64,000 nt of DNA, from positions 2,894,009-2,958,008 of the forward strand of contig NZ_CP004350.1 of the NCBI RefSeq assembly GCF_000550785.1. Reading direction: 5' to 3'. Origin of the DNA: Corynebacterium casei LMG S-19264. GTDB taxonomy: Bacteria; Actinomycetota; Actinomycetes; Mycobacteriales; Mycobacteriaceae. This document shows, one piece after another, positions 1 through 39,470 of this stretch. The notes beneath the pieces were generated by a model. That model had not been told where the DNA came from. It ran no database searches and was given only the letters and a program-made list of their open reading frames with translations. A program made the translations under genes and the position numbers. Position 1 is the stretch's first letter, and the number at the start of each line of letters is the position of its first letter.

Positions 1-2425
1 CGACTGTGGTCATGCCAGGGCCTGCGTAAACAGCTGGCTCGACATCGCTATCGAGTGCGTCAATTTCAGTGGCGGTCATTTCCACCACTGCCATCGCGCC
101 CTGGTTTTCTGGAGTCAAGGAAGCTTCGCCCTCACCCATCAGACGTGCACGGTGGCTGGCAATGAGCAGCGCATCCTTGTCATTCAAACCGCCAGCAGCA
201 TATGCCGCAGCAATTTCACCCATGGACATACCCATGACACCAGCTGGGCGCACACCGAAGTGGGCCAACAGGTCAGTCAGGGCAATCTGAATAGCGGTGA
301 TTGCTACCTGGGCGGTTTCGGTGTTGTAGGTCTGCGCGTCATCATCGATAAGCTCAAGCAACGACCAGCCGGCCTCAAAGTCAATGGTCTCATTGAGCTC
401 TTCCAGGCGCTGCGCGAACATCGGCGATACCGCCATGAGGTCCTTGGCCATCTTGCGGTGCTGGGAACCAAAGCCCGAGTACACAAAGACCGGACCGCGG
501 GTTGCTGGGGAATCTGCCGCAGCAATGCCCAAAGAAACCTTGCCGTCCGCGACCTGGCGCAGGCGCTTAACAGCGTCTGCTGCGTTATTCGCCGTGACAA
601 CCGCGCGGGTGCGACCGTGGTTGCGGCTGGCCAAAGAGCGCGCCAATTCCAGCATGCCAGCGTGATCGAGTTTCTCATTTTCAATGTAATCAGCCAAATT
701 TGCCGCTGCCGTGCGACGACGCGATGGCAGCAAACCAGATACCGGCAAAGCAACGGTGGCATCAACGATGCTTGGTTCTTCTCCTTCCTCCTTGGCTGGA
801 ACCTCGCAGGTGTCTACCGCCAACTGTGGCTCGGCTGGAGTCTGCTTGCCGGTGTATTCAGCAACCACGACGTGGGCGTTGGTGCCGCCGAAGCCGAAGC
901 CCGAGATACCCGCAACCTTGGAACCGGAGTACTCCGGCCACTCGCGTGGATCTTCTACGACCTCAAGGTGCTCAGCATCGAAATCGATGTAGCGGTTTGG
1001 CTCGGTGAAATGGATGGATGGCGGGATAATGCCGTGGCGCATGCCCTCGATGACCTTGATCAGGCCCACGATACCGGCCGCGGATTCGGAGTGGCCAATG
1101 TTGGACTTCGCCGAACCCAGCAAGACTGGGTTGGCGGCTTCACGGCCAGCGCCGACAATCTTGCCCAGCGCGGTGGCCTCAATTGGGTCACCCAGAATGG
1201 TGCCGGTGCCGTGTGCTTCCACATAGTCCACGGATTGTGGGTCAACTTCAGCATCAATGTATGCGCGTTCCAGAACGTCAACCTGTGCATCAGGGTTTGG
1301 AGCGGTCAAACCATTGGAGTGACCGTCAGAGTTCACAGCAGAACCCTTGATCACGCCGAGGATGTTATCCCCATCTTCTTCTGCATCTTCCAGGCGCTTG
1401 AGAACCACCATGCCAGCGGCGTCCGCACGGACAAAGCCATCCGCGTCATCAGAAAACGCGCGGATACCGCCGGTTGGTGAAATCACGCCAAGCTCACCAA
1501 AAGAGGTAGTGATAAATGGTGAAGCCTGCACGTTAATACCGCCGGCCAAAGCAACGTCAGCATCGCCTTCGCGCAAACCGCGCACAGCCTGGTGGATAGC
1601 AACCAAAGACGATGAGCATGCGGTGTCCACGTTGATGGAAGGACCACGCAGGTCCAAAGCATAAGACACGCGGTTTGGGATGATGGACGAAGAAGAGCCA
1701 GTCAACGCATAAGGGTGCGCTTCCGCCGGGTCGGCGGCAATGAGCATGCCGTAGTCATTATTGGTGGAGCCAACGTAGACACCAGTTGCGGTGCCACGCA
1801 GCTCATTTGCTGGCACACCAGCGTCTTCGAGTGCTTCCCACACCACTTCTAACATGATGCGCTGCTGCGGATCCATGTTGGTAGCTTCCAGCGGGGACAA
1901 ACCGAAGAACTCTGGGTCAAAGTTCGAGATATCTTCAAAGTAGCCGCCGCGAAGATTCTGAGTTTCCATCTTCGTGCGCAGCACCTGATCAGAGCTGTAC
2001 TCAGACCAACGGCCAATAGGCAGCTCACCGGTGCCGGCGCGGCCCTCATTGAGCATGTTCCAGAACTCTTCAACGTTCTTCGCGCCTGGGAAACGCCCCG
2101 AGACACCAATAATCGCGATGTCATGCGCGCCCGTACCCGAAGACTTCTTGGCGTGCAGGCGCTTGGACTGTGCCGCAGCAGGAGTTTCTTTCGGGCCATT
2201 AATAAGGCGGTCGGCTAAAAGCGCGATAGTGGGGTATTCATATGCCACCGTCGCGTCAAGCTGTTGACCAAGGAGGTTTTCTAACTCACCCGACAACACC
2301 ACCGCGTCACGTGAGGAGAGCCCAAAGTTCTCCAGGGGTTTGGTATCTACGATCTCTTCTTCTGGCAAGCCAGTTACATCGGCTACCCAAGCTCGGATCC
2401 AGCCTTGGAGTTCTTCAACGGTCAT
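1..2425 (-). CDS. pks13: Mycolic acid polyketide synthase Pks13 (5' part; cut by window edge)
   Basis: Type I polyketide synthase that condenses two activated fatty acids into the corynomycolate precursor. The frame stays open from the ATG at 2425 to the window edge, giving the first ~808 residues. Visible in order: an N-terminal carrier domain with the phosphopantetheine site FGLSSRDAV (Ser38 likely); a ketosynthase with VDTACSSSL (Cys270), EAHGTGT and KSNIGH; then an acyltransferase with GMSMGEIAAAY (Ser734). The rest of the AT, the second carrier domain and the thioesterase lie outside. FadD32 is immediately upstream on the same strand, as in Mycobacterium and C. glutamicum. FadD32 is known to load the N-terminal carrier domain. 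The 293-bp spacer from fadD32 leaves room for its own promoter. Confidence 0.96.
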   Translation of the reverse strand, partial: MTVEELQGWIRAWVADVTGLPEEEIVDTKPLENFGLSSRDAVVLSGELENLLGQQLDATVAYEYPTIALLADRLINGPKETPAAAQSKRLHAKKSSGTGAHDIAIIGVSGRFPGAKNVEEFWNMLNEGRAGTGELPIGRWSEYSSDQVLRTKMETQNLRGGYFEDISNFDPEFFGLSPLEATNMDPQQRIMLEVVWEALEDAGVPANELRGTATGVYVGSTNNDYGMLIAADPAEAHPYALTGSSSSIIPNRVSYALDLRGPSINVDTACSSSLVAIHQAVRGLREGDADVALAGGINVQASPFITTSFGELGVISPTGGIRAFSDDADGFVRADAAGMVVLKRLEDAEEDGDNILGVIKGSAVNSDGHSNGLTAPNPDAQVDVLERAYIDAEVDPQSVDYVEAHGTGTILGDPIEATALGKIVGAGREAANPVLLGSAKSNIGHSESAAGIVGLIKVIEGMRHGIIPPSIHFTEPNRYIDFDAEHLEVVEDPREWPEYSGSKVAGISGFGFGGTNAHVVVAEYTGKQTPAEPQLAVDTCEVPAKEEGEEPSIVDATVALPVSGLLPSRRRTAAANLADYIENEKLDHAGMLELARSLASRNHGRTRAVVTANNAADAVKRLRQVADGKVSLGIAAADSPATRGPVFVYSGFGSQHRKMAKDLMAVSPMFAQRLEELNETIDFEAGWSLLELIDDDAQTYNTETAQVAITAIQIALTDLLAHFGVRPAGVMGMSMGEIAAAYAAGGLNDKDALLIASHRARLMGEGEASLTPENQGAMAVVEMTATEIDALDSDVEPAVYAGPGMTTV

Positions 2426-2477
2426 AAAGGTTAATGCCTTACTAATTTACAAATTCACTAATTCACTCAGAAAACCG

Positions 2478-2598
2478 GTTACATAGTCATATCGCCGTAT
2501 ACCCGGTTGAACGTTACATACCCCTAGTACACATCATTGGGGGTAATTTTTGGAAATCACAACGCCCGGTCAAGCCTAAATTAAGACAAAACCGGGCG
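2478..2598. repeat. Direct repeat and inverted repeat in the pks13 leader
   Basis: Two copies of GTTACATA lie 35 bp apart (2478-2485 and 2513-2520) just upstream of the pks13 start. Further upstream CGCCCGGT (2563-2570) and ACCGGGCG (2591-2598) form an exact inverted repeat around a 20-nt loop. These could be regulator sites for pks13; no regulator can be named from sequence. Confidence 0.4.
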
Positions 2599-2667
2599 AA
2601 AACTCAGCAACACAGCAATACAGCGACATAGCCCGCGGGCTACTGCCTACCTCAGGCTGGTGCCTTC

Positions 2668-2705
2668 GCAGATGCATGCTCGGAAGTGGTGGGCTATGCA
2701 TCTGC
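2668..2705 (-). terminator. Hairpin just after fadD32
   Basis: GCAGATGCAT (2668-2677) and ATGCATCTGC (2696-2705) form a perfect 10-bp stem with an 18-nt loop, starting 13 bp past the fadD32 stop. There is no T-run on the minus strand, so it may be an attenuator, an mRNA 3'-end stabiliser or a weak terminator rather than a classical one. Confidence 0.4.
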
Positions 2706-2718
2706 ATTATCTCAAGGA

Positions 2719-4569
2719 CTAGGCCATGTAGTTCTTCTTCGCTACGCGGCGGGCAATCTTGCCGGAGGAGGTGCGGTTGATTTCATGCGGCGCTTTCCAC
2801 TCGATGACATCAGGAACAATGCCGTGGCTCTTGCTCACCGCGGTGCGAACAGCCTCGGTTGCGGCCTCATCACCAGATTCATCGGCGGAGTCGGCGCGCT
2901 CAATCAGAACAATCAACTGCTCGGTGTTGTCACCTTCCACAGAGAAAGCAGCAATGGAGTCCGGGCGCACGTGATCAGATGCTTCCTGGATGGTGCCTTC
3001 AATATCCTGTGGGTAGTGGTTGCGGCCAGCAATGACAATAAGGTCCTTGAGGCGGCCGGTGATGTAGAGCTCGCCATCGATGATGGTGCCCAAGTCACCG
3101 GTTGCCATCCACTTATCATCATCCGGTGCGCCCTCAACGCGGCTACCTTCGGCCAGACGCTCACCTAGGGTGTTGCGGAAGGTGGCCTTGGTTTCATCCT
3201 CACGGCCCAAGTAACCAACTGCCATGTTTTCACCGTGTGCCCACAGCTCACCGACGACACTGTCAGCGACCTCAGCGCGGGTTTCCGGATCCACGATGGT
3301 CAGGTACTGACCGGTCACAACCTGGCCGTTAGATGCGAATGGCACAGAGTTCTCAGATGCCTCAACCGACTTTGCTTCACCGGCGGCCAGTGCCTCACGG
3401 TCGAAGTGGTTGAACACTGGGCGCTCATCATTTTGCGGAGTAGACACCAGCAGGGATGCCTCAGCCAGGCCGTAGGACGGACGCAGAACCTTGCGGTCGA
3501 GACCATTGTTCTTGAATACCTCGTAGAAGTTTTCCACGGCGGTCTGGGTTACTGGCTCAGAACCGATGATGATGCCGTCCAGGTTGGACAGATCCAGCTC
3601 TTCACCCTCAGCTGGCTTGCCGTAACGGGTAGCAAGTTCCAATGCGAAGTTAGGAACAACGGTGTAGGTTGCAGCCAGCTTCTCATCAATGTCTTTGCGC
3701 TTGAGCTGATCCACCCAGCGCTTTGGCTGCTGGATGAAGTCACGTGGACCCATCATTTCAAAAGGCAGACCCATGATGACCACGAACAGGGACAGGATAA
3801 TGCCCATGTCGTGGTGCAGTGGCAACCAGGTAACCAGACGCAACGGCATCTTCAACTTGGCTGCGGAGTAAATCTGCAGCACGTTGGTCAAAATCGAACG
3901 GTTGGTCAGCTCCACGCCCGCTGGTGTGCGGGTGGAACCGGAGGTGTACTGCAAGAACGCAGTCTGATCAATTGGCATCACGGTGGACATTGCCAGCAAC
4001 TGCTGGCCTTCCAGCGTGGACTGCGGGGTGACATAAGACTCCGCCAGAGAATCCGGCAAGGAATCCACGGACAAGATACGTGGACGCTCACGGGAAGGAA
4101 GTTCAGAGAAGTGCGTGCGCACTGCCTGCGCGGACACGGAGTTGGTCAGCACAATCTTTGGCTGGCAGTCCGCGAATACCGCGCGCAGGTGGTCCGCGTG
4201 GCCAGGCTCATTCGGATCATAAAGAGGAACCGGAACCATGCCGGCATAAAGCGCACCAATGAAACCGAACAGGTACTCCGGGGAGTTACCAGCCAAGATA
4301 GCTACGCGGTCATTAAGTTTGCCCACCTGCTGCAAACGCGCGGCGACAGCCTTAACGCGAGTGTTGATTTCCTGGCGGGTGTACACCACCAGCTCACCAT
4401 CGCGGGAGTTGGAGTAATCCCAAAAGCGCAGTGCCTTTCGGTCACCGCCACCGGTGTGCAAGTCGCCTTGGTACAGCAACTCTGCCAAACCAGCCAAGGA
4501 CAGCTGTGGGGCTAAGGTAATTTCGCCCTTGTCGTTGTAGAACTGCTGCATTGCGGCATGCAAATCCAT
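2719..4569 (-). CDS. fadD32: Long-chain fatty-acyl-AMP ligase FadD32
   Basis: Adenylates long-chain fatty acids and passes the acyl group to Pks13; cytoplasmic, corynomycolate synthesis. The protein has 616 residues, normal for the family. The adenylation core motif FLQYTSGSTRTPAGVELTN lies at about 205-223. The C-terminal part has MATGDLG and a final Lys-rich stretch (SSGKIARRVAKKNY). It has the overall look of a fatty-acyl-AMP ligase rather than a CoA ligase. The start ATG at 4569 follows AAGGAGA at good spacing. It lies between the cutinase-like gene (upstream, 79 bp) and pks13 (downstream), the order known from Rv3802c-Rv3801c-Rv3800c. A GATAAT hexamer about 25-30 bp upstream could be an internal promoter. 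Confidence 0.95.
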   Translation of the reverse strand: MDLHAAMQQFYNDKGEITLAPQLSLAGLAELLYQGDLHTGGGDRKALRFWDYSNSRDGELVVYTRQEINTRVKAVAARLQQVGKLNDRVAILAGNSPEYLFGFIGALYAGMVPVPLYDPNEPGHADHLRAVFADCQPKIVLTNSVSAQAVRTHFSELPSRERPRILSVDSLPDSLAESYVTPQSTLEGQQLLAMSTVMPIDQTAFLQYTSGSTRTPAGVELTNRSILTNVLQIYSAAKLKMPLRLVTWLPLHHDMGIILSLFVVIMGLPFEMMGPRDFIQQPKRWVDQLKRKDIDEKLAATYTVVPNFALELATRYGKPAEGEELDLSNLDGIIIGSEPVTQTAVENFYEVFKNNGLDRKVLRPSYGLAEASLLVSTPQNDERPVFNHFDREALAAGEAKSVEASENSVPFASNGQVVTGQYLTIVDPETRAEVADSVVGELWAHGENMAVGYLGREDETKATFRNTLGERLAEGSRVEGAPDDDKWMATGDLGTIIDGELYITGRLKDLIVIAGRNHYPQDIEGTIQEASDHVRPDSIAAFSVEGDNTEQLIVLIERADSADESGDEAATEAVRTAVSKSHGIVPDVIEWKAPHEINRTSSGKIARRVAKKNYMA

Positions 4570-4648
4570 GGAGTCTCCTTTGAAGAAATTTTAAGTTTCG
4601 CTTCTAAAATTATCAGCCTTGATACCCAAAACGTTACCTCACAGTAAC

Positions 4649-5593
4649 TTAGCCCTGATTAATAATGTCAGAAGCCCAACCAACAACCCACTGATTAGTG
4701 GTGGTTCCGGGGATCACATTGTCATTTGACGCGTAAATGGCGTGGATACCATTGGCATCGATAAGCTCTAATGCTCTTTCTGCGGCGTTGCCGATGTTAT
4801 GCGGCGCGTCGCAAATGCTATCCGATGGCGCACAAATCTGATAAGTCCGATCCGCCAACGCACCGAAATCATTCGGACGCGCACCGCGCATGGAAGCACC
4901 CGGGACTACCAACTGCACCAGGCCAGTGACCGGCTGCAGAGCAATCTCCGCGCCAATGCCACCCAGATCAACACCTGGGTTGATGCCCACACCGTTTTCG
5001 CGGCGACCATCAGCAATTGCGACCACACCCGCTACTGATTCCGCCGGAATAACGCCAGTACCGCCACCGATCTCATCCGCGATATCACCAACAATCACCG
5101 CACCCTGGGAGAAACCAGCCAGAATGAACTGGGTCTGCGGGCACTCCCCGTGCAGCCACTGAAGCTCAGCTTCCAGCTTGGCGCGACCCTCATTGCGGGA
5201 GTCGTCATAGCTCATTTCCTGCTGGGACTGAACGCTCTTGAACTGCGCAGTATAAGGCAAGGTCCACACACGAACCTGGTCCTCAGTAAACGTTTCTTTC
5301 AAAGGATTAGTTATAGACAGCATGAAAGAACGACTGTTTGCCTGCGGGTTCAGCGGATCATCATCCGGAGCAGATTCCCAGGTACCCGGCGCAGAGATGA
5401 ACTCATAGGCAGGACACCACTCGGGCTGCGAAGGTACTTCGGGCGCGGCTTCAGTTGCTTCAGTCTGGTCCGATTTGTCATCGCCCAGTCCGCCGAGCGG
5501 GCCGGAGTCGTTGCGCATCAAGTACTGCGCCGCACCGCCGCCGATCACCAAAATAACAATGATGACGGCGATGATAGTCAGTGGTTTTCTCAT
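4649..5593 (-). CDS. Membrane-anchored cutinase-like esterase (Culp6/Rv3802c type)
   Basis: Serine esterase of the cutinase family; the Mycobacterium orthologue Rv3802c has phospholipase/thioesterase activity and is needed for mycolate metabolism. The protein has 314 residues: an N-terminal signal-anchor (about 5-25), an acidic Gln/Glu-rich linker (about 30-57) and a cutinase domain. The nucleophile is Ser162 in AGFSQGAV. Asp258 in CAPSDSICD and His284 in GIHAIYASN fit the other triad positions, and paired cysteines flank them as in cutinases. It sits between the DUF732-like lipoprotein and fadD32, matching the synteny around Rv3802c. Its Shine-Dalgarno sequence AAGGAG is rather far (about 14 nt) from the ATG. 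Confidence 0.9.
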   Translation of the reverse strand: MRKPLTIIAVIIVILVIGGGAAQYLMRNDSGPLGGLGDDKSDQTEATEAAPEVPSQPEWCPAYEFISAPGTWESAPDDDPLNPQANSRSFMLSITNPLKETFTEDQVRVWTLPYTAQFKSVQSQQEMSYDDSRNEGRAKLEAELQWLHGECPQTQFILAGFSQGAVIVGDIADEIGGGTGVIPAESVAGVVAIADGRRENGVGINPGVDLGGIGAEIALQPVTGLVQLVVPGASMRGARPNDFGALADRTYQICAPSDSICDAPHNIGNAAERALELIDANGIHAIYASNDNVIPGTTTNQWVVGWASDIINQG

Positions 5594-6188: not shown

Positions 6189-8120
6189 TTAGCTCACGAT
6201 GCCCATGATTTGGCGGATGGTGCCGCCTTCGAAGTCCTGGCTAAGACCACCAGCTGGGATTTCATTCAGGTCAGAGGTTGGGTAGCCGTACTTGCCGGTC
6301 TCATAACCGTTCTGACCCCAGTGGCTGAAGATATCGCCATAAGGGATGAAGTGTGCGCCGGTAGATGCGGACCAGTAGATGTTGCCGTTCTCAAATTCCT
6401 GGAAGGCCCCACCCTTGATCTTCTTCTCGCCGCCACGTGGCATGCCGGCCTCGGAGTTAGCGCCGCCCATTTCCTTGTACTTGTTGCCGATAGCGCCGTG
6501 CACAATCTGGGTCTTCTTGTCCTTGGTCTGTACCAGAACACCATTTTGGAAGTTCTGGAACTGGCCGCCGCCTTCAACGTTGGTGACAGGACCGGATGGG
6601 TACTTCAGGTCACCGCTTTCGTAGCCGTTAGCGCCCCATGCCTTCATCATTGCCTTGGTGACAGCGAATGCGCCGGTCTGTGGGGTCCAGTAGATGGAGC
6701 CGTTTTCAAAGTGCACGAAGCGGCCAACGCCATCTGGTGCGGTGGTCTCGCCGGTGGTTGGGAAGCCCAACCAGGAGGAAGGTCCGCCGATTTCAGCATA
6801 GCGAGCGTTGATACGGCCAAACAGTGCGCGCGCACCGGTCTCTGGCGACCAGTAGGCGGTACCGGTGGCGAAGTCCTGTGCCTTGCCGTCTTCGACGTCA
6901 TATTCATCGTTCAGGCAGTTGCCGATGACACCGGATTCGGTGGCTTCTGCAATCGCGCCGACTGGCTGGCAATCAGATCCGCGGTCTACTTCACCAAGGC
7001 CGAAGGTATCAGCGATGTATGGCCATGCCTGGGTCATTTCAAACTGCCAGTATTCCCAGCTGTGGACGCCGGATGGGCGCAGCTTGGAAACAACATCTAC
7101 GTTGGCGTCCTTGGCACGCTTGATGAAGGTGTCGGTGGACATGCGGGAGATAACTTCCAGGCCAACGCCAGCAGCATTAGCTGGGCCCTTCGCAACGGAA
7201 GACAGCTGGCCGTAGTCATCCTGGCCGGAGCCAGCGGAGACGTATACGGTCATGTCCTTGAGTTCTTCAATGCCCAGCTTCGGGTCATGGTTGTACCAGT
7301 TCTGGGAACCGTACTCGCCCCACATGTTGGTTGCGGTGTATCCACCGGCATCCGTCTGTGCCGCAGCAATTGCCTGTGGCATGCCCGCAGACGTGGTGTC
7401 CAGGTAGCCGGAGAAGGAACCGACGAAGTCAAACATGTAAGGGTGACGCTCGGCCAGGTTCATCGCGGCGGTACCGCCCATGGAGATACCAACCAGGGCG
7501 CGCTGCTTGTTGGAACGGTACTCATTGTCCAAAATTGGGACGAGCTCCTGGGTTAGGAAGGTTTCCCACTTGTAGTGCTTGCCGTTGTCTGGCTTTTCCC
7601 AGTCCGCGTAGAACGAGGATTCGCCACCGACAGGCATAATCACGTTCACATTCTTATCGGCGTAGTACTGCTCAATGTTGGTCTCAATGGTCCAACCAGA
7701 TTCATCATCACGCGCGCGCAGACCGTCCAGTGCCCATACCTCTGGGAACTGCTTGTCTGGTTGGGAGTACCAGTCACGGGCCAGCAGGATCTGCACGACC
7801 TGCTCTTTCTCTGGCATTGCTGCGGACTGGATGTAGACCTTCAGGTGGCGTGGGGTGAGGTATTCCACGCGGTTGATGTCTACGCCCTCAGGCAGTCCCT
7901 CAACTTCTGGGTATTCAGTGTTGATGGGATCGCGCTGTGGCGGGGTGCCTGGCGCGAAGGAGTCCGACAGGCTGGAACCGCCAGGCAGGGAGGACTGTGC
8001 GCCGGCAAATGGAATCAGCGACAAGCCCAGCACGGCTGCGGTTGGGAGTGCGACCAGAGCCATCCGGCGCTTCTTGGCGCCTGGCTTGAGCACGGTGGAA
8101 CGGGAATCTTTGGAGCGCAT
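6189..8120 (-). CDS. cop1: Trehalose corynomycolyltransferase with C-terminal LGFP repeats (Cop1/PS1 type)
   Basis: Antigen-85-type mycolyltransferase that transfers corynomycolate between trehalose esters and arabinogalactan outside the cell. The 643-residue protein has a signal peptide (basic start, hydrophobic 21-40, AGA before about 42). The esterase domain (about 70-375) has nucleophile Ser213 in VGISMGGTAAM and His353 in GVHSWEYW. From about 405 to the end are several LGFP-type repeats (WLGFPTTGE, YWTPQTGAFAV, YWSASTGAHF). The fusion is typical of corynebacterial Cop1/PS1. I chose the second ATG (8120) because GAGG has correct spacing to it and is too close to the ATG at 8126. First gene of a likely operon with the lipoprotein and cutinase genes. 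Confidence 0.92.
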   Translation of the reverse strand: MRSKDSRSTVLKPGAKKRRMALVALPTAAVLGLSLIPFAGAQSSLPGGSSLSDSFAPGTPPQRDPINTEYPEVEGLPEGVDINRVEYLTPRHLKVYIQSAAMPEKEQVVQILLARDWYSQPDKQFPEVWALDGLRARDDESGWTIETNIEQYYADKNVNVIMPVGGESSFYADWEKPDNGKHYKWETFLTQELVPILDNEYRSNKQRALVGISMGGTAAMNLAERHPYMFDFVGSFSGYLDTTSAGMPQAIAAAQTDAGGYTATNMWGEYGSQNWYNHDPKLGIEELKDMTVYVSAGSGQDDYGQLSSVAKGPANAAGVGLEVISRMSTDTFIKRAKDANVDVVSKLRPSGVHSWEYWQFEMTQAWPYIADTFGLGEVDRGSDCQPVGAIAEATESGVIGNCLNDEYDVEDGKAQDFATGTAYWSPETGARALFGRINARYAEIGGPSSWLGFPTTGETTAPDGVGRFVHFENGSIYWTPQTGAFAVTKAMMKAWGANGYESGDLKYPSGPVTNVEGGGQFQNFQNGVLVQTKDKKTQIVHGAIGNKYKEMGGANSEAGMPRGGEKKIKGGAFQEFENGNIYWSASTGAHFIPYGDIFSHWGQNGYETGKYGYPTSDLNEIPAGGLSQDFEGGTIRQIMGIVS

Positions 8121-29651: not shown

Positions 29652-29703
29652 TTCACAAATCATAGTGACTAGCGCTACACTGTTTCCATATATTGTTCAA
29701 CAA
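29652..29703 (+). promoter_or_regulatory. pxp promoter with GntR/FCD-type operator
   Basis: TTCACA (29652-29657) and TACACT (29676-29681) are 18 bp apart and form a plausible promoter. Just downstream lies the palindrome TTGTTCAACAA (29693-29703), which fits the FadR-subfamily consensus TNGTNNNACNA. A matching site is at 36487-36497. A repressor there would block initiation or early elongation. Confidence 0.65.
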
Positions 29704-29721: not shown

Positions 29722-30483
29722 ATGGCTTCGGTGTACATTGATCTGAACGCTGACTTAGGCGAAACCACCGCGGGCAACCCTGTTGCCGATGATAAAGCGA
29801 TGTTGGAGATGGTCTCCTCCGCCAACGTGGCCACTGGCTTTCACGCGGGTGACCCGCACTCAATCGCGGGCACACTCAAGGCTGCGGCTGCTGCTGGTGT
29901 GACCGTGGGCGCGCACCCTGGATACAACGATCCAGCAGCTTTCGGTCGTCGCTTCATTGATTATGATCCGGCAGAGCTTGCCGATGAAGTCACCTACCAA
30001 ATCGGTGCCCTAGACGCCCTCGCGCGTGCAAATGGCACCAAGATTTCCTACGTCAAACCGCACGGCGCGATGTACAACACCATCGTGCACCACACCGCGC
30101 AGGCCGAGGCGGTCATCGCTGGCATCAAAGCCTTCGGGGACTTGCCAGTGATGCTGCTGCCAGGTGGCGTGGCTGTCGATGTCGCAGAAAAAGCTGGTCT
30201 GACAGTCATCCGCGAAGCTTTCGCGGACCGCAATTACAACCCGGACGGCACGTTGGTGAGCCGCCGTGAAGCGCATGCAGTTTTGCACGATCCGGCAGAT
30301 GTTGTCGCGCGTGTTTTGGAGGTCGCCGAGTCCGGCTCAGTCACCGCTGCTGACGGCAGCGTCCTGAAAGTCGATGCCCAATCGGTGTGCACGCACGGTG
30401 ACTCCCCAGGGTCCGTCAACCTGCTGCGCGAGGTTGTCGCTGAGCTGGGCCGTCGCAACATCGAGATCCGGAGCTTCGCCTAA
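29722..30483 (+). CDS. pxpA: 5-oxoprolinase subunit A (LamB/YcsF family)
   Basis: Subunit of the ATP-dependent prokaryotic 5-oxoprolinase, which opens 5-oxo-L-proline to glutamate. The 253-residue protein starts with YIDLNADLGETT and has SSANVATGFHAGDP, GVTVGAHPGYND and the late VCTHGDSPG motif, all typical of LamB/YcsF proteins. It is first in the operon: pxpA, pxpBC fusion and a biotin carboxylase overlap by 1 and 11 bp. GGGATGG about 9 nt before the ATG is a weak ribosome site. Expression should be set by the upstream palindromic operator. Confidence 0.93.
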   Translation: MASVYIDLNADLGETTAGNPVADDKAMLEMVSSANVATGFHAGDPHSIAGTLKAAAAAGVTVGAHPGYNDPAAFGRRFIDYDPAELADEVTYQIGALDALARANGTKISYVKPHGAMYNTIVHHTAQAEAVIAGIKAFGDLPVMLLPGGVAVDVAEKAGLTVIREAFADRNYNPDGTLVSRREAHAVLHDPADVVARVLEVAESGSVTAADGSVLKVDAQSVCTHGDSPGSVNLLREVVAELGRRNIEIRSFA

Positions 30484-32036
30484 TGCAGATCCATCCCGTT
30501 GGAACCCGCGCGCTGCTCATCGATCTTGATGGGCTCACCCAGGTCATGGACTACCACGCCGCCCTGACCGCGCAGCCGTTGAAGAACCAGGTGGACTGCA
30601 TCGCTGCAGCCACCACGGTGCTGCTCACCTTCGAAACCCCAGATTCCGCACGTCATGCTGCGCAGTTCCTACAAGACTTCACCCCGGGTGCGGCCAAGGC
30701 CACGGAAGCACGCACCGTAGAAATCGACGTGCTCTATGACGGCGAAGACATCGATGAAGTCGCTGAACACCTAGGAATCTCCCGCGAAGCCCTCATCGAG
30801 TGGCATACCTCCACGGAGTGGACCGCCGCATTCGGCGGTTTCGCCCCTGGCTTTAGCTACTGCGCACCAGCAGATCCTGCCGATGCGCGCTCAATCCCCC
30901 GGCGCGCCAACCCGCGCACCGCAGTCCCAGCAGGAGCCGTGGCCATCGCGGGTGACTTCTCCGCGGTCTACCCACGGCAGTCACCTGGTGGCTGGCAGCT
31001 TCTGGGCACCACCAACACCCCGATGTGGGATTCGGCAGCCGAGCCACCCGCGCTAGTTCAACCAGGTGACCGCGTGCGCTATCGCGCAGTCAATGAGCTG
31101 CCGGAAATCTATGACGCTGATTCCACCGCCAAGCGCTCCCCGGCGCGCCTGCCGCGCATGGAAGTTCTCGACGCAGGCTTGCTCACCTTGTTCCAGGACC
31201 TAGGCCGCCCAGGTTTCGGCGACTTGGGTGTGACACCGTCGGGTGCGGCCGATAGGGCATCGGCAGCGACCGCCAACATCGCGGTGGGCAATCCGCGCCA
31301 GGCAACCGTGTTGGAAAACATCGGTGGCATGGAGTTGCGCGCACTTAGTGACACGGTTGTGTGCGTCACCGGTGCCGCTGCCCGGGTAAGCCTTGACACC
31401 ATGCCTGTACAACTAGCGCGCCCAGTGCTGGTAACCGCTGGCCAAACCGTGCGCATCGAGGCTGCCGAATACGGCATGCGCAACTACGTTGCTATCCGCG
31501 GCGGACTCATCGCGGATTCTGAGCTCGGCTCTTCTTCCACGGATGTGCTTTCCGGTCTGGGTCCTGCACCGGTTGCCGTCGGCGACATCCTCGGCGTGCT
31601 ACCGCGCTCCTCCGGAATGACCGACGGCCAACTGAGCAACCCGCTGCGCGTCAGCCAGACCGAAGATGGCCGTACCGTTGCCACTCTGCGCTGCGTGCTT
31701 GGCCCGCGCGATGACTGGTTTGGCGAAAGTGTGCACAGCTTCCTGGACACTGAGTGGACGGTGAGCGCACATTCCAACCGCGTCGGACTGCGCCTTGAAT
31801 CCGACACCACCGTGGAACGCGTCGTCGACGGCGAATTGCCATCAGAGGGCATGGTTGCCGGTTCCGTTCAGATTCCGCCCAATGGCAAACCCGTGCTCTT
31901 TCTGCGCGACCACGCCGTCACCGGCGGCTACCCAGTGGTGGCCACCGTATTAGAAGAAGATATTGATATCGCAGCCCAGCTCCCACCAGGAGCTACCGTG
32001 TGCTTTGAAGTTAAGGGAAACACTCATGACCATTAA
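30483..32036 (+). CDS. pxpBC: Fused 5-oxoprolinase subunits B and C (KipI-KipA fusion)
   Basis: One 517-residue chain carries both subunits. The N-terminal ~210 residues match PxpB/KipI (FGGFAPGFSYC, RRANPRTAVPAGAVAIAG, YPRQSPGGWQLLG). Residues ~220-517 match PxpC/KipA (DAGLLTLFQDLGRPGF, GVTPSGAADRAS, LENIGGMELRA, ending with GGYPVVATVLEEDID). Fusion order KipI-KipA equals the carboxyltransferase part of urea carboxylase. The start ATG overlaps the pxpA stop by 1 bp (TAATG). In Bacillus the two parts are separate genes kipI and kipA next to ycsF. Function as 5-oxoprolinase is the best match; see the finding on a possible biotin-dependent carboxylase. Confidence 0.92.
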   Translation: MQIHPVGTRALLIDLDGLTQVMDYHAALTAQPLKNQVDCIAAATTVLLTFETPDSARHAAQFLQDFTPGAAKATEARTVEIDVLYDGEDIDEVAEHLGISREALIEWHTSTEWTAAFGGFAPGFSYCAPADPADARSIPRRANPRTAVPAGAVAIAGDFSAVYPRQSPGGWQLLGTTNTPMWDSAAEPPALVQPGDRVRYRAVNELPEIYDADSTAKRSPARLPRMEVLDAGLLTLFQDLGRPGFGDLGVTPSGAADRASAATANIAVGNPRQATVLENIGGMELRALSDTVVCVTGAAARVSLDTMPVQLARPVLVTAGQTVRIEAAEYGMRNYVAIRGGLIADSELGSSSTDVLSGLGPAPVAVGDILGVLPRSSGMTDGQLSNPLRVSQTEDGRTVATLRCVLGPRDDWFGESVHSFLDTEWTVSAHSNRVGLRLESDTTVERVVDGELPSEGMVAGSVQIPPNGKPVLFLRDHAVTGGYPVVATVLEEDIDIAAQLPPGATVCFEVKGNTHDH

Positions 32037-33765
32037 GACCATCCTCATTGCTAACCGCGGTGAAATCGCCGTCCGTATTGCCCGCGTAGCGCGTGATCTT
32101 GGCATCAAGTCCGTTGCTATTTACTCCGAAGCAGACGCTGGCGCGCTGCACACCCAGGTCGCCGATGAAGCGTATGCGCTCACCGGCAACTCGGCCTCCG
32201 ATACTTACATGAACGTTCCTGCGCTGCTGGACATCGCGGCGCGCGCCGGCGCGGATGCCGTGCACCCTGGTTACGGCTTCCTTTCTGAAAACGCCGATTT
32301 CGCCCGCGCGGTCAGTGACGCCGGCATGATCTGGGTTGGTCCGCAGCCTGAGGCAATTGAGCTGCTCGGCGATAAGATTGCTGCGCGCCGCGTGGCCGAA
32401 GAAGTCGGCGCGCCACTGGCACCGGGCACCTCTGACCCCATCGATGATTGGCAAGAAGCCCGCGAGTTCGCCGAAGAACACGGTCTGCCTATCGCGATTA
32501 AGGCTGCTTATGGCGGCGGCGGCCGCGGCCTCAAAGTGGTTGATAACCTCGACGACATTGAAGAGGCCTTCAACTCCGCTGGCCGTGAAGCCATGGAAGC
32601 TTTTGGCCGCGCCGAATGCTACGTGGAAAAGTTCCTGACCCATCCACGCCATGTTGAGGCGCAAGTGCTTGCCGATACCCACGGCAACGTCGCAGTCCTC
32701 GGCACCCGCGACTGCTCCACCCAGCGCCGCTTCCAAAAACTTATCGAGGAAGCGCCCGCACCAGACCTGACTGAAAAGCAGCGCAACGGCATCATCGAAG
32801 GTGCTCGCGCTATTTGCTCCAAGGTCAACTACACCGGCGCCGGCACCGTCGAGTTTATCGTGTCCGAAGACGGCACCATTTCCTTCCTGGAAGTCAACAC
32901 CCGCGTGCAGGTTGAGCACCCTGTGACCGAAGCTGTCACTGGCGTGGACATCATCGCGGAACAGATTCGTATCGCTGCAGGCGAGCCCATGTCCTTTAGC
33001 GAAGACCCAACCTCCAACGGTCACGCCTTCGAGTTCCGTATCAACGCCGAAGACATCCTCAATGGTTTTGCGCCGTGCCCAGGAACCATCGTCAGCTTCG
33101 AGCCACCAACCGGCCCGGGCATTCGCGTGGATACTGCGGTGCATTCTGGTTCGATCATCCCGCCATACTATGACTCGCTTATCGCCAAACTCATTGTGTG
33201 GGGCCCAACCCGCGACGTAGCCCTGTCGCGTGCGAAGTATGCCTTGCGCGAATTCAACATCGCCGGCGTGCGCACCGTGCTGCCATTCCACCGCGACATG
33301 ATGGAAGAAACCGCCCTGACCGGTGAAAAACTCGGCGTATTCACCGACTGGGTGGACCACAACTACCGCCCATCTGCTTCCAATCAGGTGGACAAGGTTG
33401 AGGCAATCTACGCCCAGCGCCACAACGTTGCTGTAGAAATCGGCGGCAAGCTCATCAACGTTGGCGTGCCGGTGGAATTCTTCAACTCCACTGCGTCCTC
33501 CGGTTCCGCGGCACCAACGTCCGCCGCGAAGGATTCCGATGCAGCAAGCTCCGATGACGGCGCTGTCACCTCACCTTTCGAGGCCAACCTCGTAGCCTGG
33601 AAAGTCTCCGACGGCGAATCCGTTGCTGAAGGCGAGGCGATTGCAACCGTAGAAGCAATGAAGATGGAATCCGCCGTCAAGGCACCTCGCACCGGCACCA
33701 TCACGTTGCTGGCCAAAGAAGGCGACCGCCTTGAAACCTCCACGGTGATTGCAACCATCGAGTAG
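32026..33765 (+). CDS. Biotin carboxylase with C-terminal biotin carboxyl carrier domain
   Basis: ATP-dependent carboxylation of biotin, with its own biotin carrier. The 579 residues start with TILIANRGEIAVRIARV. The ATP-grasp domain has KAAYGGGGRGLKVV and the EVNTRVQVEHPVTE motif. After an Ala/Ser-rich linker (about 490-520) comes a biotinyl domain with Lys546 in VEAMKMES. No carboxyltransferase domain is present. The ATG at 32026 has AAGGGA 8 nt before it and overlaps the pxpBC end by 11 bp; earlier in-frame codons to 31963 lie deep in pxpBC. The location suggests it serves the PxpB-PxpC protein rather than the main acyl-CoA carboxylases of the cell. Confidence 0.93.
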   Translation: MTIKTILIANRGEIAVRIARVARDLGIKSVAIYSEADAGALHTQVADEAYALTGNSASDTYMNVPALLDIAARAGADAVHPGYGFLSENADFARAVSDAGMIWVGPQPEAIELLGDKIAARRVAEEVGAPLAPGTSDPIDDWQEAREFAEEHGLPIAIKAAYGGGGRGLKVVDNLDDIEEAFNSAGREAMEAFGRAECYVEKFLTHPRHVEAQVLADTHGNVAVLGTRDCSTQRRFQKLIEEAPAPDLTEKQRNGIIEGARAICSKVNYTGAGTVEFIVSEDGTISFLEVNTRVQVEHPVTEAVTGVDIIAEQIRIAAGEPMSFSEDPTSNGHAFEFRINAEDILNGFAPCPGTIVSFEPPTGPGIRVDTAVHSGSIIPPYYDSLIAKLIVWGPTRDVALSRAKYALREFNIAGVRTVLPFHRDMMEETALTGEKLGVFTDWVDHNYRPSASNQVDKVEAIYAQRHNVAVEIGGKLINVGVPVEFFNSTASSGSAAPTSAAKDSDAASSDDGAVTSPFEANLVAWKVSDGESVAEGEAIATVEAMKMESAVKAPRTGTITLLAKEGDRLETSTVIATIE

Positions 33766-33804: not shown

Positions 33805-34419
33805 ATGCTTTCTCAGTCCGTGGCATCCGCTATCAGGGATGCAATCTCCGCTGGTGAGTTCCAGCCCGGTCAGCAACTTAGTGAAGTCAAGGCCGCGGAA
33901 CGCTTTGAATGCTCCCGCAATACCCTGCGGGAAGCATTTACTGAACTAACGTCTGAGCGCCTGGTGGAGCGCATCCCCAACCGCGGGGTTTTCATCGCCA
34001 CCCCGGACACGGACTATGTCAAAGACCTGTACCTCGCGCGCATGGCGCTCGAGCACGCCGGTGTGCTGTGGGGTGATTTCCCCGCCGCCGACCGTCTCAT
34101 TGAGCTGGCCGCTTCCGCGCGTCGATTTTCCGAAAGCCGCGATGACCAAGCTGTATCCAGCATCAATCAGCGCTTCCACCGCGCGCTGGTGGCGTCGCTG
34201 GGCTCAGAGACTCTCGATGAACAGATGTCCAGCCTTCTCGCGCGCATGCGCCTGACCTTCTTGCTTGCGCTGCCGCATCTTCCGAATATTCATAACGAGC
34301 ACATTGAGAACAACGTTCGCCTGGCCACGCTCATTGCTGCCGGACGACGCGAAGAGGCTGCCACGGTTTCCCGTGACAGCCTCCTCAAGGCGTATAACTC
34401 AATTCGCTTCGTGCTCTAA
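33805..34419 (+). CDS. GntR family regulator, FadR/FCD subfamily
   Basis: A 204-residue transcription factor. The N-terminal winged helix (about 1-66) has QLSEVKAAERFECSRNTLREAFTEL and LVERIPNRGVFIA. The helical FCD domain follows, with candidate metal-binding histidines in NQRFHRALV and NIHNEHIENNVRLATLI. It lies inside the oxoproline-type cluster, so it is the likely local repressor. The palindrome TTGTTSAACAA in both outer promoters fits the binding consensus of this subfamily. The effector is probably the cluster's substrate (5-oxoproline or a relative); that is inference. Its stop is 2 bp from the stop of the convergent DUF1445 gene. Confidence 0.9.
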   Translation: MLSQSVASAIRDAISAGEFQPGQQLSEVKAAERFECSRNTLREAFTELTSERLVERIPNRGVFIATPDTDYVKDLYLARMALEHAGVLWGDFPAADRLIELAASARRFSESRDDQAVSSINQRFHRALVASLGSETLDEQMSSLLARMRLTFLLALPHLPNIHNEHIENNVRLATLIAAGRREEAATVSRDSLLKAYNSIRFVL

Positions 34420-34421
34420 AA

Positions 34422-35204
34422 CTAAGGCACTTGGTATTCCAAGTCCCGGGCGTCAGTTACCAGCATCTTTCCTGGCTCATGCGTGATAGCCAGGTGCGGG
34501 CGTGAATTCATCACCACTGCCTGTGGGGTAACTCCACACGCCCAGAACACTGGGATGTGGCCTTCGGGAATCTCTACCGGCTCACCGAAGTCAGGCTGTG
34601 AAAGATCTGTAATTCCAATGGCTTCCGGGTTACCAATGTGCACCGGCGCGCCGTGCACTGACGGGTAGCGGGAGGTAATCCGCACCGCATCCGCCACGCG
34701 GTCAGCGGGGATAGGACGCATGGAGACTACCTGCGGCCCGGAGAACACACCGGCCGGGGTGGTTGGCGTGCTCGTGCGATACATCGCCACGTTGCGGTCT
34801 TGCTCAATGTGCTCGAGCTTGATGCCGTTTTCAACCAGCGCGGTCTCAAAAGTAAACGAGCAACCAATCAAGAACGCGACCATGTCCTCGCCCCAGTACG
34901 GCGTGGCATCCGTGACTGAGTCCACCAGCTCGCCGTCTTTGAAGATGCGGTAGGCCGGGATATCCGTGCGAATGTCACTGTCGGGCAATAGTGCGGATTC
35001 ATACTCACCAGCTTCCAGCACGCCGACGATGGGACAGGACTTGGGGTTGCGCTGCGCGAAGAGCAGAAAATCAAACGCATACTCTTTCGGCACCGCCAGC
35101 AGGTTGGCTTGCATATAGCCTGCGGCGTAGCCCGAGGTCGTGGTCAAGTTCTCAGCCCGGGCGAGTTTGCGCACGTCAGCTGCAGTCATTTCAAAAGGTT
35201 TCAT
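34422..35204 (-). CDS. DUF1445 family putative hydro-lyase (YcsI type)
   Basis: A 260-residue cytoplasmic protein of the DUF1445/YcsI family. Visible family features are [42 protein letters not shown] and [11 protein letters not shown], with a conserved Cys in the third and fourth. The same domain is found with a D-glutamate cyclase module in animals, which links it to oxoproline/glutamate chemistry; the exact reaction is not established. The ATG at 35204 is 2 nt after the transporter stop; a GTG at 35216 would overlap it. Transporter and DUF1445 form a two-gene operon, converging on the regulator gene. Confidence 0.88.
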
Positions 35205-35206
35205 GT

Positions 35207-36424
35207 CTATGCCCACATGTTCACGATACCGGAGAAGGCCTTAACGCCAATGTAAATCTCCAGGATAAGAGCCAGGGCACCAGCAACCAGCAGCCACTTC
35301 GGGTGCTTAACACCTTGGAGCAGGTCAGGGCGACGGAAGGCCACCCACATCACCATGGCGAATGCGATTGGCAAGATGATGCCGTTGAATGCACCTGCGA
35401 AGATGAGCAGCTTCTGTGGCGCGGAGTTCAAGATGAAGAACAAGATAGTACAGCCAATGACGAAGCCGACGGTGAGGAAGTTGCGGGTACGCGGGGCAAC
35501 CTTCTGCGTGGTCACAAAGGTGATGGAGGTGTAAGAAGCACCGATGACAGAAGACAGACCAGCGGCGAAGAGAACTACGCCGAATGCGCGGAGCCCGAAC
35601 TCGCCAGCAGCGTGGAAGAATGCATCCGCCGCGGTGTTGTCTTCAGACAGTGCCACGCCAGTGGAAACAACACCCAGTACCGCCAGGAACAGCAGCACGC
35701 GCATGATGCCGGTGATGATAATGCCCATGACAGAGGTCGTGGTGATGTCCTTGACGTGCTCTGGGCCGGACAGGCCAGAGTCAATCAGGCGGTGGGCGCC
35801 AGCGAAGGTGATGTAGCCGCCGACGGTGCCACCGATCAAGGTGGTGATGACAAAGAAGTCAATCTCTTCCGGCATCACGGTGTTCTTCAATGCTTCGCCC
35901 ACTGGTGGCTGGGACACAATTGCCACGTAGAGCATCAGCAGAATCATGATGGCGCCAAGCACCGCGACGATACGGTCCAGTGCGATACCGGCCTTCTTGG
36001 ACAAGAAGATAAAGATTGCGATGGCAGCGGAGATAACACCGCCGATACGTGCATCGATACCAAGCATCGCGTTCAGGCCGAGACCCGAACCCGCGATATT
36101 GCCGATGTTAAAGACCACTCCGCCAATGAAAACCAGAATGGCGAGGAACCATCCCAAGCCCGGCAGAACGGTGTTACCAAGCTCGTTGGCGCGCATGCCG
36201 GAGACACACAGAACGCGCCAGACGTTGAGCTGGATTGCGATATCCACGATGATGCTCAGCAAAATCGCGAATGCGAGAGCCGCGCCCATCTGGACGGTAA
36301 AGACTGAAGTCTGGGTCAAAAAGCCCGGACCAATAGCGGAGGTAGCCATGAGGAACATGGCACCTGCCATTGCACCTAATCCTCGTGGAGGATTCTTGGC
36401 TGGGGTTACTGTTTCAGCACTCAC
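35207..36424 (-). CDS. NRAMP-fold transporter without canonical metal motifs (YcsG type)
   Basis: A 405-residue membrane protein with about 11 hydrophobic helices, related to NRAMP transporters. TM1 reads [18 protein letters not shown]: the DPGN metal-binding motif is absent. TM6 reads [16 protein letters not shown]: the usual Met-Pro-His is also absent. It therefore should not be called a manganese/iron transporter. Position beside DUF1445 and the pxp genes, as ycsG is beside ycsF/ycsI in Bacillus, suggests import of 5-oxoproline or a similar organic acid, perhaps with proton or sodium. The start is GTG at 36424 with a weak ribosome site. The promoter carries the cluster operator. Confidence 0.87.
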
Positions 36425-36475: not shown

Positions 36476-36504
36476 ATCATAGGTGTTTGTTGAACAATAA
36501 AGAA
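36476..36504 (-). promoter_or_regulatory. Transporter promoter with GntR/FCD-type operator
   Basis: On the minus strand TTCTTT (36504-36499) and TATGAT (36481-36476) are 17 bp apart. The palindrome TTGTTGAACAA (36487-36497) fills the spacer. It matches the site at 29693-29703 except for the central base and its orientation. Confidence 0.65.
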
Positions 36505-38268: not shown

Positions 38269-38288
38269 AACCACTAACGTTGCTATGT

Positions 38289-39470
38289 ATGGATTCCAGG
38301 TTTAGCCTTAAGCAATTGGCACGCGATTTATCGTCGCTCACGCCGCAAGAACACGGCTTTACCTACATTGATACCTCCCGCCGCCCGAAGGCTACCGGCC
38401 GGTTGTCGGGGTGGATATTATCCGCGAAAGACCTGAATGATGTCGCCGGCATGCCCACCTCACTGGGCGCCAAGCACCGCGCGTATAACGCAGAGACTAC
38501 CGATGCCACCATCGCCGCCTTGGAAGACCAGGGCGCGCTGATTGTGGGTAAATCTTCCACCCCGGAGCTTGGCCTGCGCGTAGATACGGAGCCGGTGGAT
38601 ATGCCGCATCCGGAAAATCCCTTGCATCCCGGCGCCACGCCTGGCGGGTCTTCCGGTGGCGCCGCGGTGCAGGTGGCGCGGGGTTTGTTGCGGGCGGCGC
38701 ATGGTTCCGATGGTGGCGGTTCGCTGCGTGTTCCGGCCGCGGCGTGTGGCGTGGTGGGCTTCAAGCAGTCCGGCACGGATCTGGGCGTTTCGGGCTTTAT
38801 CACCCGCACGGTTGCTGATGCCGCCTTCCTCCACGACATCACCCCGCGTCCCGCGCCTGCGCGCGTTGGTGTGCTCAAGCAGCCGCTTTTCGCGCACACT
38901 CGCGTCGACCCGCGGCATTTGCGCGCGGTGGATGAGGCGACGTCCCAGCTTTCTGCCGCGGGCTATCCGGTGCAGGAGATTGCGCCTTATCCCACCGCCG
39001 ATGTGACCTTTGAGTCTTTCCGCCACATTTTCACCTCCCGCCTGGCGGGCATGGATGCCGGTGAGGGCTATTTCGAGTGGGTGCGGCAGCAGGGGTTAAA
39101 GGTTTCAGAGCGCATGCTTGCCGATGCCCTCCGCCACACCAACGGCCTCCCCCGCCTTTTGGCAGACTGCTGGCAAGTCGATGCGATTATCACCCCGATG
39201 CTGGCCTATACCCCGCCGCAGATTGGCACCTTCTTGGCGCTGGACCACGAAGAGAACTTTATGGAGCAAACGCGGTGGTCGCCGTGGGGTTCGCTGTTTA
39301 ATGTTGCGCAGCTACCCGCGATTTCAGTGCCGTGGTCCATATCCCCCGGTGTGAGCACTCCGCAGGCGCGAACACCCCAGGCTGCGCAAACACCCGTGGG
39401 TGTTCAAGTAGGCTCAGTGACGTTAAATGATGCACAGCTTCTTCACCTCGCGTCTGTCCTTCACGTCTAA
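38289..39470 (+). CDS. Amidase signature family protein
   Basis: A 393-residue amidohydrolase with a Ser-cisSer-Lys triad: Lys in VGKSSTPELGLR and the serines in GATPGGSSGGAAVQV, followed by AAHGSDGGGSLRVPAAACG. It is somewhat short for the family. The substrate cannot be read from sequence; generic amides are the safe call. It is paralogous to the amidase at 57491-58633, sharing an N-terminal block (LTPQEHGF, LSGWIL, AKDLNDVAGMPT). The ATG at 38289 is chosen over an in-frame TTG at 38280; no ribosome site is seen for either. It is divergent from pheA with only 33 bp between starts, so the promoters must overlap. A CPBP gene follows 14 bp later. Confidence 0.88.
   Translation: MDSRFSLKQLARDLSSLTPQEHGFTYIDTSRRPKATGRLSGWILSAKDLNDVAGMPTSLGAKHRAYNAETTDATIAALEDQGALIVGKSSTPELGLRVDTEPVDMPHPENPLHPGATPGGSSGGAAVQVARGLLRAAHGSDGGGSLRVPAAACGVVGFKQSGTDLGVSGFITRTVADAAFLHDITPRPAPARVGVLKQPLFAHTRVDPRHLRAVDEATSQLSAAGYPVQEIAPYPTADVTFESFRHIFTSRLAGMDAGEGYFEWVRQQGLKVSERMLADALRHTNGLPRLLADCWQVDAIITPMLAYTPPQIGTFLALDHEENFMEQTRWSPWGSLFNVAQLPAISVPWSISPGVSTPQARTPQAAQTPVGVQVGSVTLNDAQLLHLASVLHV

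Follow-up and report, generated by a model that had tools for sequence, protein, structure and literature searches.

What does a biotin carboxylase (BC) do in an operon for 5-oxoprolinase-type proteins? The question is raised by a locus in a 64,000-nucleotide stretch of Corynebacterium casei LMG S-19264 (contig NZ_CP004350.1, positions 2,894,009 to 2,958,008; the whole stretch is called the window hereafter), in which pxpA, a fused pxpBC and a gene for a BC with its own biotin carboxyl carrier protein (BCCP) domain follow one another on the plus strand. We consider that the cluster is probably, though far from certainly, a biotin-dependent form of prokaryotic 5-oxoprolinase. An initial annotation of the window had read it as a complete split enzyme resembling urea carboxylase; overall, that interpretation was partly supported.

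The first gene, pxpA (29722..30483, plus strand), was identified from the open reading frame (ORF) list and from domain and NCBIfam profile matches. Its product, a LamB/YcsF family protein of 253 amino acids (aa), scored 300 bits against the LamB_YcsF profile and 321 bits against the NCBIfam PxpA subfamily NF003814, whose cut-off is 226. It overlaps by 1 bp with pxpBC (30483..32036, plus strand), whose 517-aa product carries a CT_C_D domain (aa 1-191) followed by a CT_A_B domain (aa 248-509), that is, in KipI-KipA order, as seen in the ORF list, Pfam matches and a structure model. This gene in turn overlaps by 11 bp (32026-32036) with the BC-BCCP gene (32026..33765, plus strand, start ATG at 32026), which was assigned from the ORF list, Pfam matches and residue conservation, and encodes 579 aa with the Pfam domains Biotin_carb_N, CPSase_L_D2, Biotin_carb_C and a C-terminal Biotin_lipoyl. 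The biotinyl-lysine, Lys546 (codon 33661..33663, plus strand), sits in VEAMKMESA, and its position was K in 22 of 22 aligned BC sequences. All parts of a biotin-dependent carboxylase are thus encoded here, namely a BC domain with conserved residues, a carrier domain with its lysine and a carboxyltransferase (CT), together with PxpA. On these points, i.e., the three ORFs, the 11-bp overlap, the order of the fusion, the carrier with Lys546 and the domain inventory, the initial annotation was accurate. Both halves of PxpBC exceeded the CT_C_D and CT_A_B Pfam cut-offs by a wide margin; the protein did not reach the equivalog cut-offs for PxpB (TIGR00370, 126 of 145.55 bits) or PxpC (NF045499, 174 of 500 bits). 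A genome-wide profile search found it to be the sole CT_A_B gene of the 3.13-Mb genome. The cluster resembles PxpABC of C. glutamicum, B. subtilis and E. coli in having PxpA, PxpB and PxpC homologues, and differs from it in that PxpB and PxpC are fused and BC-BCCP is added.

We surveyed how often the BC accompanies this fusion. The window-like arrangement is called type I; type II has the order BCCP-BC-PxpB-PxpC-second carrier-PxpA in the single Pseudomonas locus of this type, and type III the order PxpA-BCCP-BC-PxpB-PxpC. CT_C_D was found in 72 of the 101 Corynebacterium genomes that make up the genus sample. Among the matches listed for this sample, 52 of 57 long CT frames were followed on the same strand by a BC with at least 63% identity, and none of 19 short CT frames was. 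The BC lay 0.9 to 1.5 kb from the long frame, or 2.2 kb in G028. The five long frames without a downstream BC were two in G080 (one with a degenerate BC) and one each in G040, where the BC is on another contig, G030, where the frame belongs to a urea carboxylase, and G028, a type III locus with the BC upstream (L137). Among the 19 short frames, three were non-canonical: those of G087 (type III without BC), G030 (type III with BC upstream, L135) and G007, whose stretch was not fetched. Also among the matches listed, the 52 BC-linked and the 16 canonical split genomes did not overlap (hypergeometric P of ~2e-6, ignoring shared ancestry), and tblastn found no BC or BCCP within the 8-kb stretches around the 16 split clusters.

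Two other samples gave a similar picture. The named loci were taken from 592 confirmed PxpA loci as the best 80 by similarity to the PxpA of a BC-linked Klebsiella cluster, and are hence not a frequency estimate; the one nearest to the window was C. haemomassiliense L095 (PxpA 77%, BC 73%). They comprised 45 loci with fused PxpBC, 19 with split genes, 2 partial ones and 14 with PxpA only. A BC lay downstream in 40 of the 45 fused loci, was lacking in 4 and was cut off by the contig in 1 (L097), and was found in 0 of the 19 split loci. Note that L057, L060 and L094, outside the automatic overlap limit, were counted as linked by hand inspection, and that L072 was counted as fused although its PxpC is broken across frames. 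The loci where PxpA had no PxpB or PxpC match in the stretch (L067, L073, L076, L080, L087, L098 and others) were mostly from Mycobacterium relatives. In Pseudomonas, CT_C_D was present in all 59 sampled genomes; with urea carboxylases set aside, 60 fetched loci plus L041 covered 52 of 69 high-scoring places and 9 of 17 type III-like places. BC-BCCP accompanied 11 of 11 fetched fused loci (12 of 12 counting L041), 6 of 9 fetched type III loci and 0 of 39 canonical split loci. The pairing of KipI-KipA fusions with adjoining BC-BCCP genes, to which the initial annotation had drawn attention, was thus found in all three samples. In addition, tblastn for BC and BCCP gave no match in 74 split PxpB/PxpC loci but matches to both in each of 4 control loci. 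Eight plasmid stretches around CT matches included five of type I (Enterobacter, Klebsiella, Paracoccus, Arthrobacter and Rhizobium), one of type II (Bradyrhizobium) and two with CT genes but no adjoining BC gene (Deinococcus, L039, and Natribaculum, L037). The three surveys and the 74 BC-free split loci led us to reject the BC as a chance neighbour.

The BC might instead serve an acyl-CoA carboxyltransferase (AccD) elsewhere in the cell, its place in the operon being accidental. The genome has a second BC-BCCP, taken as the housekeeping AccBC (among the matches listed), with which this BC shares 53% identity, and in the BC tree the linked BCs lie near the genus AccBC, which nests among them. 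A single origin of the linked BCs was not shown by this tree, which contained AccBC from the genus only and the window sequence twice (as the window and as L001). However, two AccD-type genes are found ~13 kb from that AccBC, which is located at 720 kb, whereas the AccD-type gene nearest the cluster is ~35 kb off, and the linkage of the BC to PxpBC spans two phyla. With AccD-type genes distant from the cluster and near the other AccBC, we rejected AccD as the partner and regard this explanation as very improbable.

The linked BC is largely intact. Universal residues were defined as those identical in 12 other BCs (7 genus AccBC, 3 from type II/III and 2 urea carboxylases); the window BC retains 104 of 107, and 96% of the cells were retained over 54 linked rows, the window being counted twice. 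Median pairwise ratios of nonsynonymous to synonymous substitution rates (dN/dS) over 22 loci were 0.18 for BC, 0.14 for PxpA and 0.22 for PxpBC. An MK motif near the C-terminus was found in 50 of 53 linked BC frames; two of the others (L001, L138) run off the end of the stretch, and the third, L129, has lost the carrier domain. As judged from the sequences, the BC is conserved and under selection in most genomes with a fused PxpBC.

The CT assignment was examined with a structure model of PxpBC (29 sequences; predicted local distance difference test, pLDDT, of 91). Its matches were TTHA0988 (Z of 39.5), MSMEG_0435 (37.8), E. coli YbgJK (34.8) and K. lactis urea amidolyase (34.2). The CT_A_B part matched the urea carboxylase fold, with Z of 34.2 to 5i8i and 25.4 to 3va7 and a root-mean-square deviation of 1.8 over 290 residues, in agreement with the earlier view of KipI-KipA as the CT module of urea carboxylase. 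The window cluster shares BC, BCCP and this CT fold with urea carboxylase and yeast urea amidolyase, and a split urea carboxylase that supplies an allophanate hydrolase would have the identical domain set; TIGR02712 was indeed matched in parts. However, single-chain urea carboxylases (L134, L140) have the order BC, PxpC-like, PxpB-like, whereas in the window the parts are in several chains, with PxpB-PxpC first and the BC after, so that the CT halves are reversed, and PxpA takes the place of the allophanate hydrolase. The TIGR02712 scores, 150 bits for PxpBC and 522 bits for BC, are far from the cut-off of 1303.85, no allophanate hydrolase exceeded the TIGR02713 cut-off of 511 bits genome-wide (the highest score was 152), and PxpA and a PxpR-type site, described below, are part of the operon. 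The "split urea carboxylase" of the initial annotation therefore holds for domain content and fails for domain order. Given the order, the TIGR02712 scores below cut-off and the lack of an allophanate hydrolase in the genome, we rejected a split urea carboxylase, which we regard as the least probable of the explanations considered.

A structural precedent for KipI-KipA in the company of a BC is PDB 9YX5 (released 2025-11-26). According to its title, the long-chain acyl-CoA carboxylase complex of M. smegmatis is present there with bound MSMEG_0435-MSMEG_0436; these are KipI-KipA homologues, and the entry includes the BC-BCCP chain AccA3 (from title, chains and sequences). AccA3 is the best solved-structure match of the window BC. 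The window cluster is thus like 9YX5 in having KipI-KipA together with a BC of this kind, and unlike it in that the BC is encoded within the pxp operon. The literature searched contained neither a paper for 9YX5 nor text on its function.

To place the linkage in the history of the CT, 130 concatenated PxpB+PxpC sequences were used for a tree with two urea carboxylases as its root. In it, the BC-linked fused proteins, 68 in number, grouped together; the supports of 0.94 and 0.99 apply to the two halves of this group and not to the node that joins them. BC-free L071, L110 and L111 and L132, with its degenerate BC, nested inside this group; the fused but BC-free L070 and L039 were placed among split proteins. 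The type II CT (loci with BC and BCCP genes: L035, L181) grouped with the E. coli protein (support 0.998), and the type III CT formed a separate clade (support 1.0) that mixes BC-linked and unlinked loci. Since types I, II and III have these separate placements, BC linkage is found, apart from urea carboxylase, in three lineages of the CT, and would reflect either repeated gain or an old linkage with repeated loss. In the type II cluster L035, a second small biotin/lipoyl-like protein (7622-8047), without the usual MK lysine motif, is encoded between PxpC and PxpA.

Evidence on the substrate comes from regulation. The C. glutamicum pxpTABC operon, a proven 5-oxoproline system, comprises the YcsG-related transporter PxpT, which is needed for growth on 5-oxoproline, and PxpABC, under the GntR repressor PxpR, which binds 5-oxoproline; its published operator is agattgttcaacaatct (available sections of PMC13274462). 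A motif search of the window found the operator core TTGTTCAACAA, identical to the PxpR operator core, at 29693..29703 (plus strand), ~24 bp before pxpA, and again at 36487..36497 (minus strand), before transporter and cyclase genes. These two copies of the 11-bp core compare with 0.07 expected from shuffles; the whole 3.13-Mb genome has 4 copies, and 1 of a control pattern. The operator scan covered 29 BC-linked loci, most of them from the closest relatives of the window; the pxpA start is reached in 26 of these (not in L129-L131), and the core before pxpA was exact in 19 and had one mismatch in 2. In the 16 BC-free clusters of the genus, the core before the transporter was exact in 14 and had one mismatch in 2. 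These predicted sites place most of the examined BC-linked operons in a 5-oxoproline-type regulon.

The genes beyond the BC are of matching kinds. A GntR/FCD regulator gene (33805..34419, plus strand; domain match), the likely PxpR counterpart, encodes a protein 28-38% identical to a GntR protein that 15 of the 16 BC-free loci encode. Convergent to it are genes for a DUF1445/D-glutamate cyclase family protein, YcsI-like (34422..35216, minus strand), and an NRAMP-family transporter, a relative of PxpT/YcsG (35207..36424, minus strand), both from domain matches; in the window, these two genes (34422-36424) stand behind a PxpR-type operator core. In common with pxpTABC, the cluster thus has an NRAMP-type transporter, a regulator of the GntR family and this operator core. 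Further on, an amidase-signature protein is encoded at 38280-39470, below the NCBIfam cut-offs of the listed matches. Because BC-linked and BC-free clusters are mutually exclusive in the genus sample and the operator is common to both, the substrate of the BC-linked enzyme is most likely 5-oxoproline. The earlier suggestion of another lactam is weakened by the core of a 5-oxoproline repressor's operator before the operon.

A carboxylase-hydrolase for another amide, 5-oxo-D-proline or a different lactam instead of 5-oxo-L-proline, is in our estimation unlikely. The DUF1445/D-glutamate cyclase family gene beside the cluster points in this direction, since a D-glutamate cyclase would be expected to yield 5-oxo-D-proline. 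Types I, II and III and urea carboxylase coexist in P. chlororaphis, so substrates may differ; Pseudomonas G132 has both a BC-linked type I (L212) and a canonical split cluster (L187), and G146 has type I plus a second short CT frame, whose stretch was not fetched. Against this stand the operator core and transporter family shared with the proven C. glutamicum 5-oxo-L-proline operon, although the operator cannot tell L from D, and the finding that the two forms never occurred together in the genus sample. Because the 5-oxo-D-proline reading overlaps with the one that we favour, the confidences attached to the best and rival readings exceed one in total. The P. chlororaphis genome in question, G102, holds three different BC-linked PxpA/CT clusters (L041, L181, L221) as well as the urea carboxylase.

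In the biotin-dependent 5-oxoprolinase that we favour, the BC would charge biotin on Lys546 using ATP and bicarbonate, and PxpBC would transfer the carboxyl group from carboxybiotin to the lactam nitrogen of 5-oxoproline. PxpA would then hydrolyse the activated, imide-like ring carbonyl, opening the ring, and the resulting N-carboxyglutamate, a carbamate, would lose CO2 to give glutamate. The net reaction would be 5-oxoproline + ATP + water -> glutamate + ADP + phosphate with bicarbonate recycled; this N-carboxylation chemistry is inferred. Because the net ATP cost is the same once bicarbonate is recycled, the difference from the known 5-oxoprolinase would lie in the need for bicarbonate and biotin, not in the overall equation. 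Carboxylation has already been considered for lactams, since it is one of three mechanisms proposed for caprolactamase CapAB, of the hydantoinase family, which opens lactams with ATP; unlike the window cluster, CapAB has no biotin carrier, and it is described as without sequence similarity to PxpABC (available part of PMC8453981).

Several observations weigh against this proposal. The C. glutamicum pxpTABC operon is essential for growth on 5-oxoproline and has no BC gene (PMC13274462, in part); none is named in that paper, from whose text the word "carboxylase" is absent. ATP hydrolysis by PxpB-PxpC has been reported (PMC8453981, in part). Because the BC-less operon is functional and this ATPase has been reported, the CT can apparently work without a dedicated BC. 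Some genomes have lost the BC or its carrier: L132 of G080 has a decayed BC (4246-5397, minus strand; 383 aa, retaining 43 of the 107 universal residues and lacking the carrier) adjoining an intact fused PxpBC frame; the BC of L129 in G029 (1791-3266, minus strand) stops at 492 aa without a biotin carrier and is directly followed by a GntR frame; and L071, L110 and L111 have no BC in the stretch despite lying inside the fused clade. The operator core was not found in 5 of the 26 BC-linked loci that reach the pxpA start; 4 of these 5 also lack a GntR gene of the window type in the fetched stretch, which may end early, and the gene was likewise not seen in the fetched stretch of three loci with the site (L146, L147, L241). 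Finally, at the thresholds used, no CT residues distinguished the 62 BC-linked sequences from the 32 split ones that are BC-free, which argues against a simple two-mechanism account and fits a common mechanism or a neutral BC.

These observations bear on a further explanation, in which PxpBC phosphorylates 5-oxoproline with ATP and BC-BCCP only tunes or supplements the reaction, e.g., through local bicarbonate or a side substrate, and can be lost. The functional BC-less operon, the PxpB-PxpC ATPase, the retention of PxpBC where the BC or carrier is lost or absent (G080, G029, L071, L110, L111) and the lack of discriminating CT residues all accord with it, as does the phosphorylation role given, as an assumption, in the introduction of PMC13274462. 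On the other hand, the tight PxpBC-BC linkage in three samples, the low dN/dS of the BC with Lys546 kept, the linkage in three CT lineages and the precedent of 9YX5 are at odds with a mere accessory. We regard this explanation as a less probable but serious competitor of biotin-dependent ring opening. The idea of a dispensable passenger, raised in the initial annotation, applies to the few lineages just named, and not to the majority, in which the BC appears to be kept by selection. Either the BC-free forms borrow a housekeeping BC for the same carboxylation chemistry, as 9YX5 hints, or the BC is an add-on; its loss in a few lineages fits both.

In the literature searched, which leaves most subscription journals outside, the PxpA-PxpBC-BC arrangement was not described, including in the available parts of PMC11001197 and PMC9894557; a word search of PMC4347857 also gave no matches. 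Adjacent bacterial genes for two urea-carboxylase-type CT halves were noted in 2011 with no function given (PMC3199775); the CT halves adjoin there as in the window, and the section concerned mentions no adjacent BC or PxpA. For an old P. putida 5-oxoprolinase, the available part of PMC8453981 cites one component of 64+51 kDa and another of 82 kDa. The linked proteins of eight Pseudomonas loci are predicted at 56-57 kDa for PxpBC, 61-62 kDa for BC and 26-28 kDa for PxpA. The likeness in mass is suggestive only, and the 51 kDa of the old enzyme does not agree well with 57 kDa. The old enzyme reportedly forms a phosphorylated intermediate.

A more general proposal, which we put forward tentatively and think rather doubtful, is that prokaryotic 5-oxoprolinase is a biotin enzyme throughout. 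PxpB-PxpC would then always be a CT, N-carboxylation would precede ring opening, the assumed phosphorylation would be wrong, and the BC would be the dedicated one in linked clusters and a housekeeping BC-BCCP (AccA3, AccBC, AccC-AccB) in unlinked ones. The 2026 paper on pxpTABC presents as an assumption the way in which PxpBC activates the stable ring of 5-oxoproline (PMC13274462, in part). The biotin-dependent 5-oxoprolinase suggested here also offers a possible reading for the KipI-KipA proteins bound to the mycobacterial acyl-CoA carboxylase complex. If it is true, a lactam would be added to the few substrates of biotin-dependent carboxylases, and the proteins mis-annotated as "allophanate hydrolase subunits" would gain a role.

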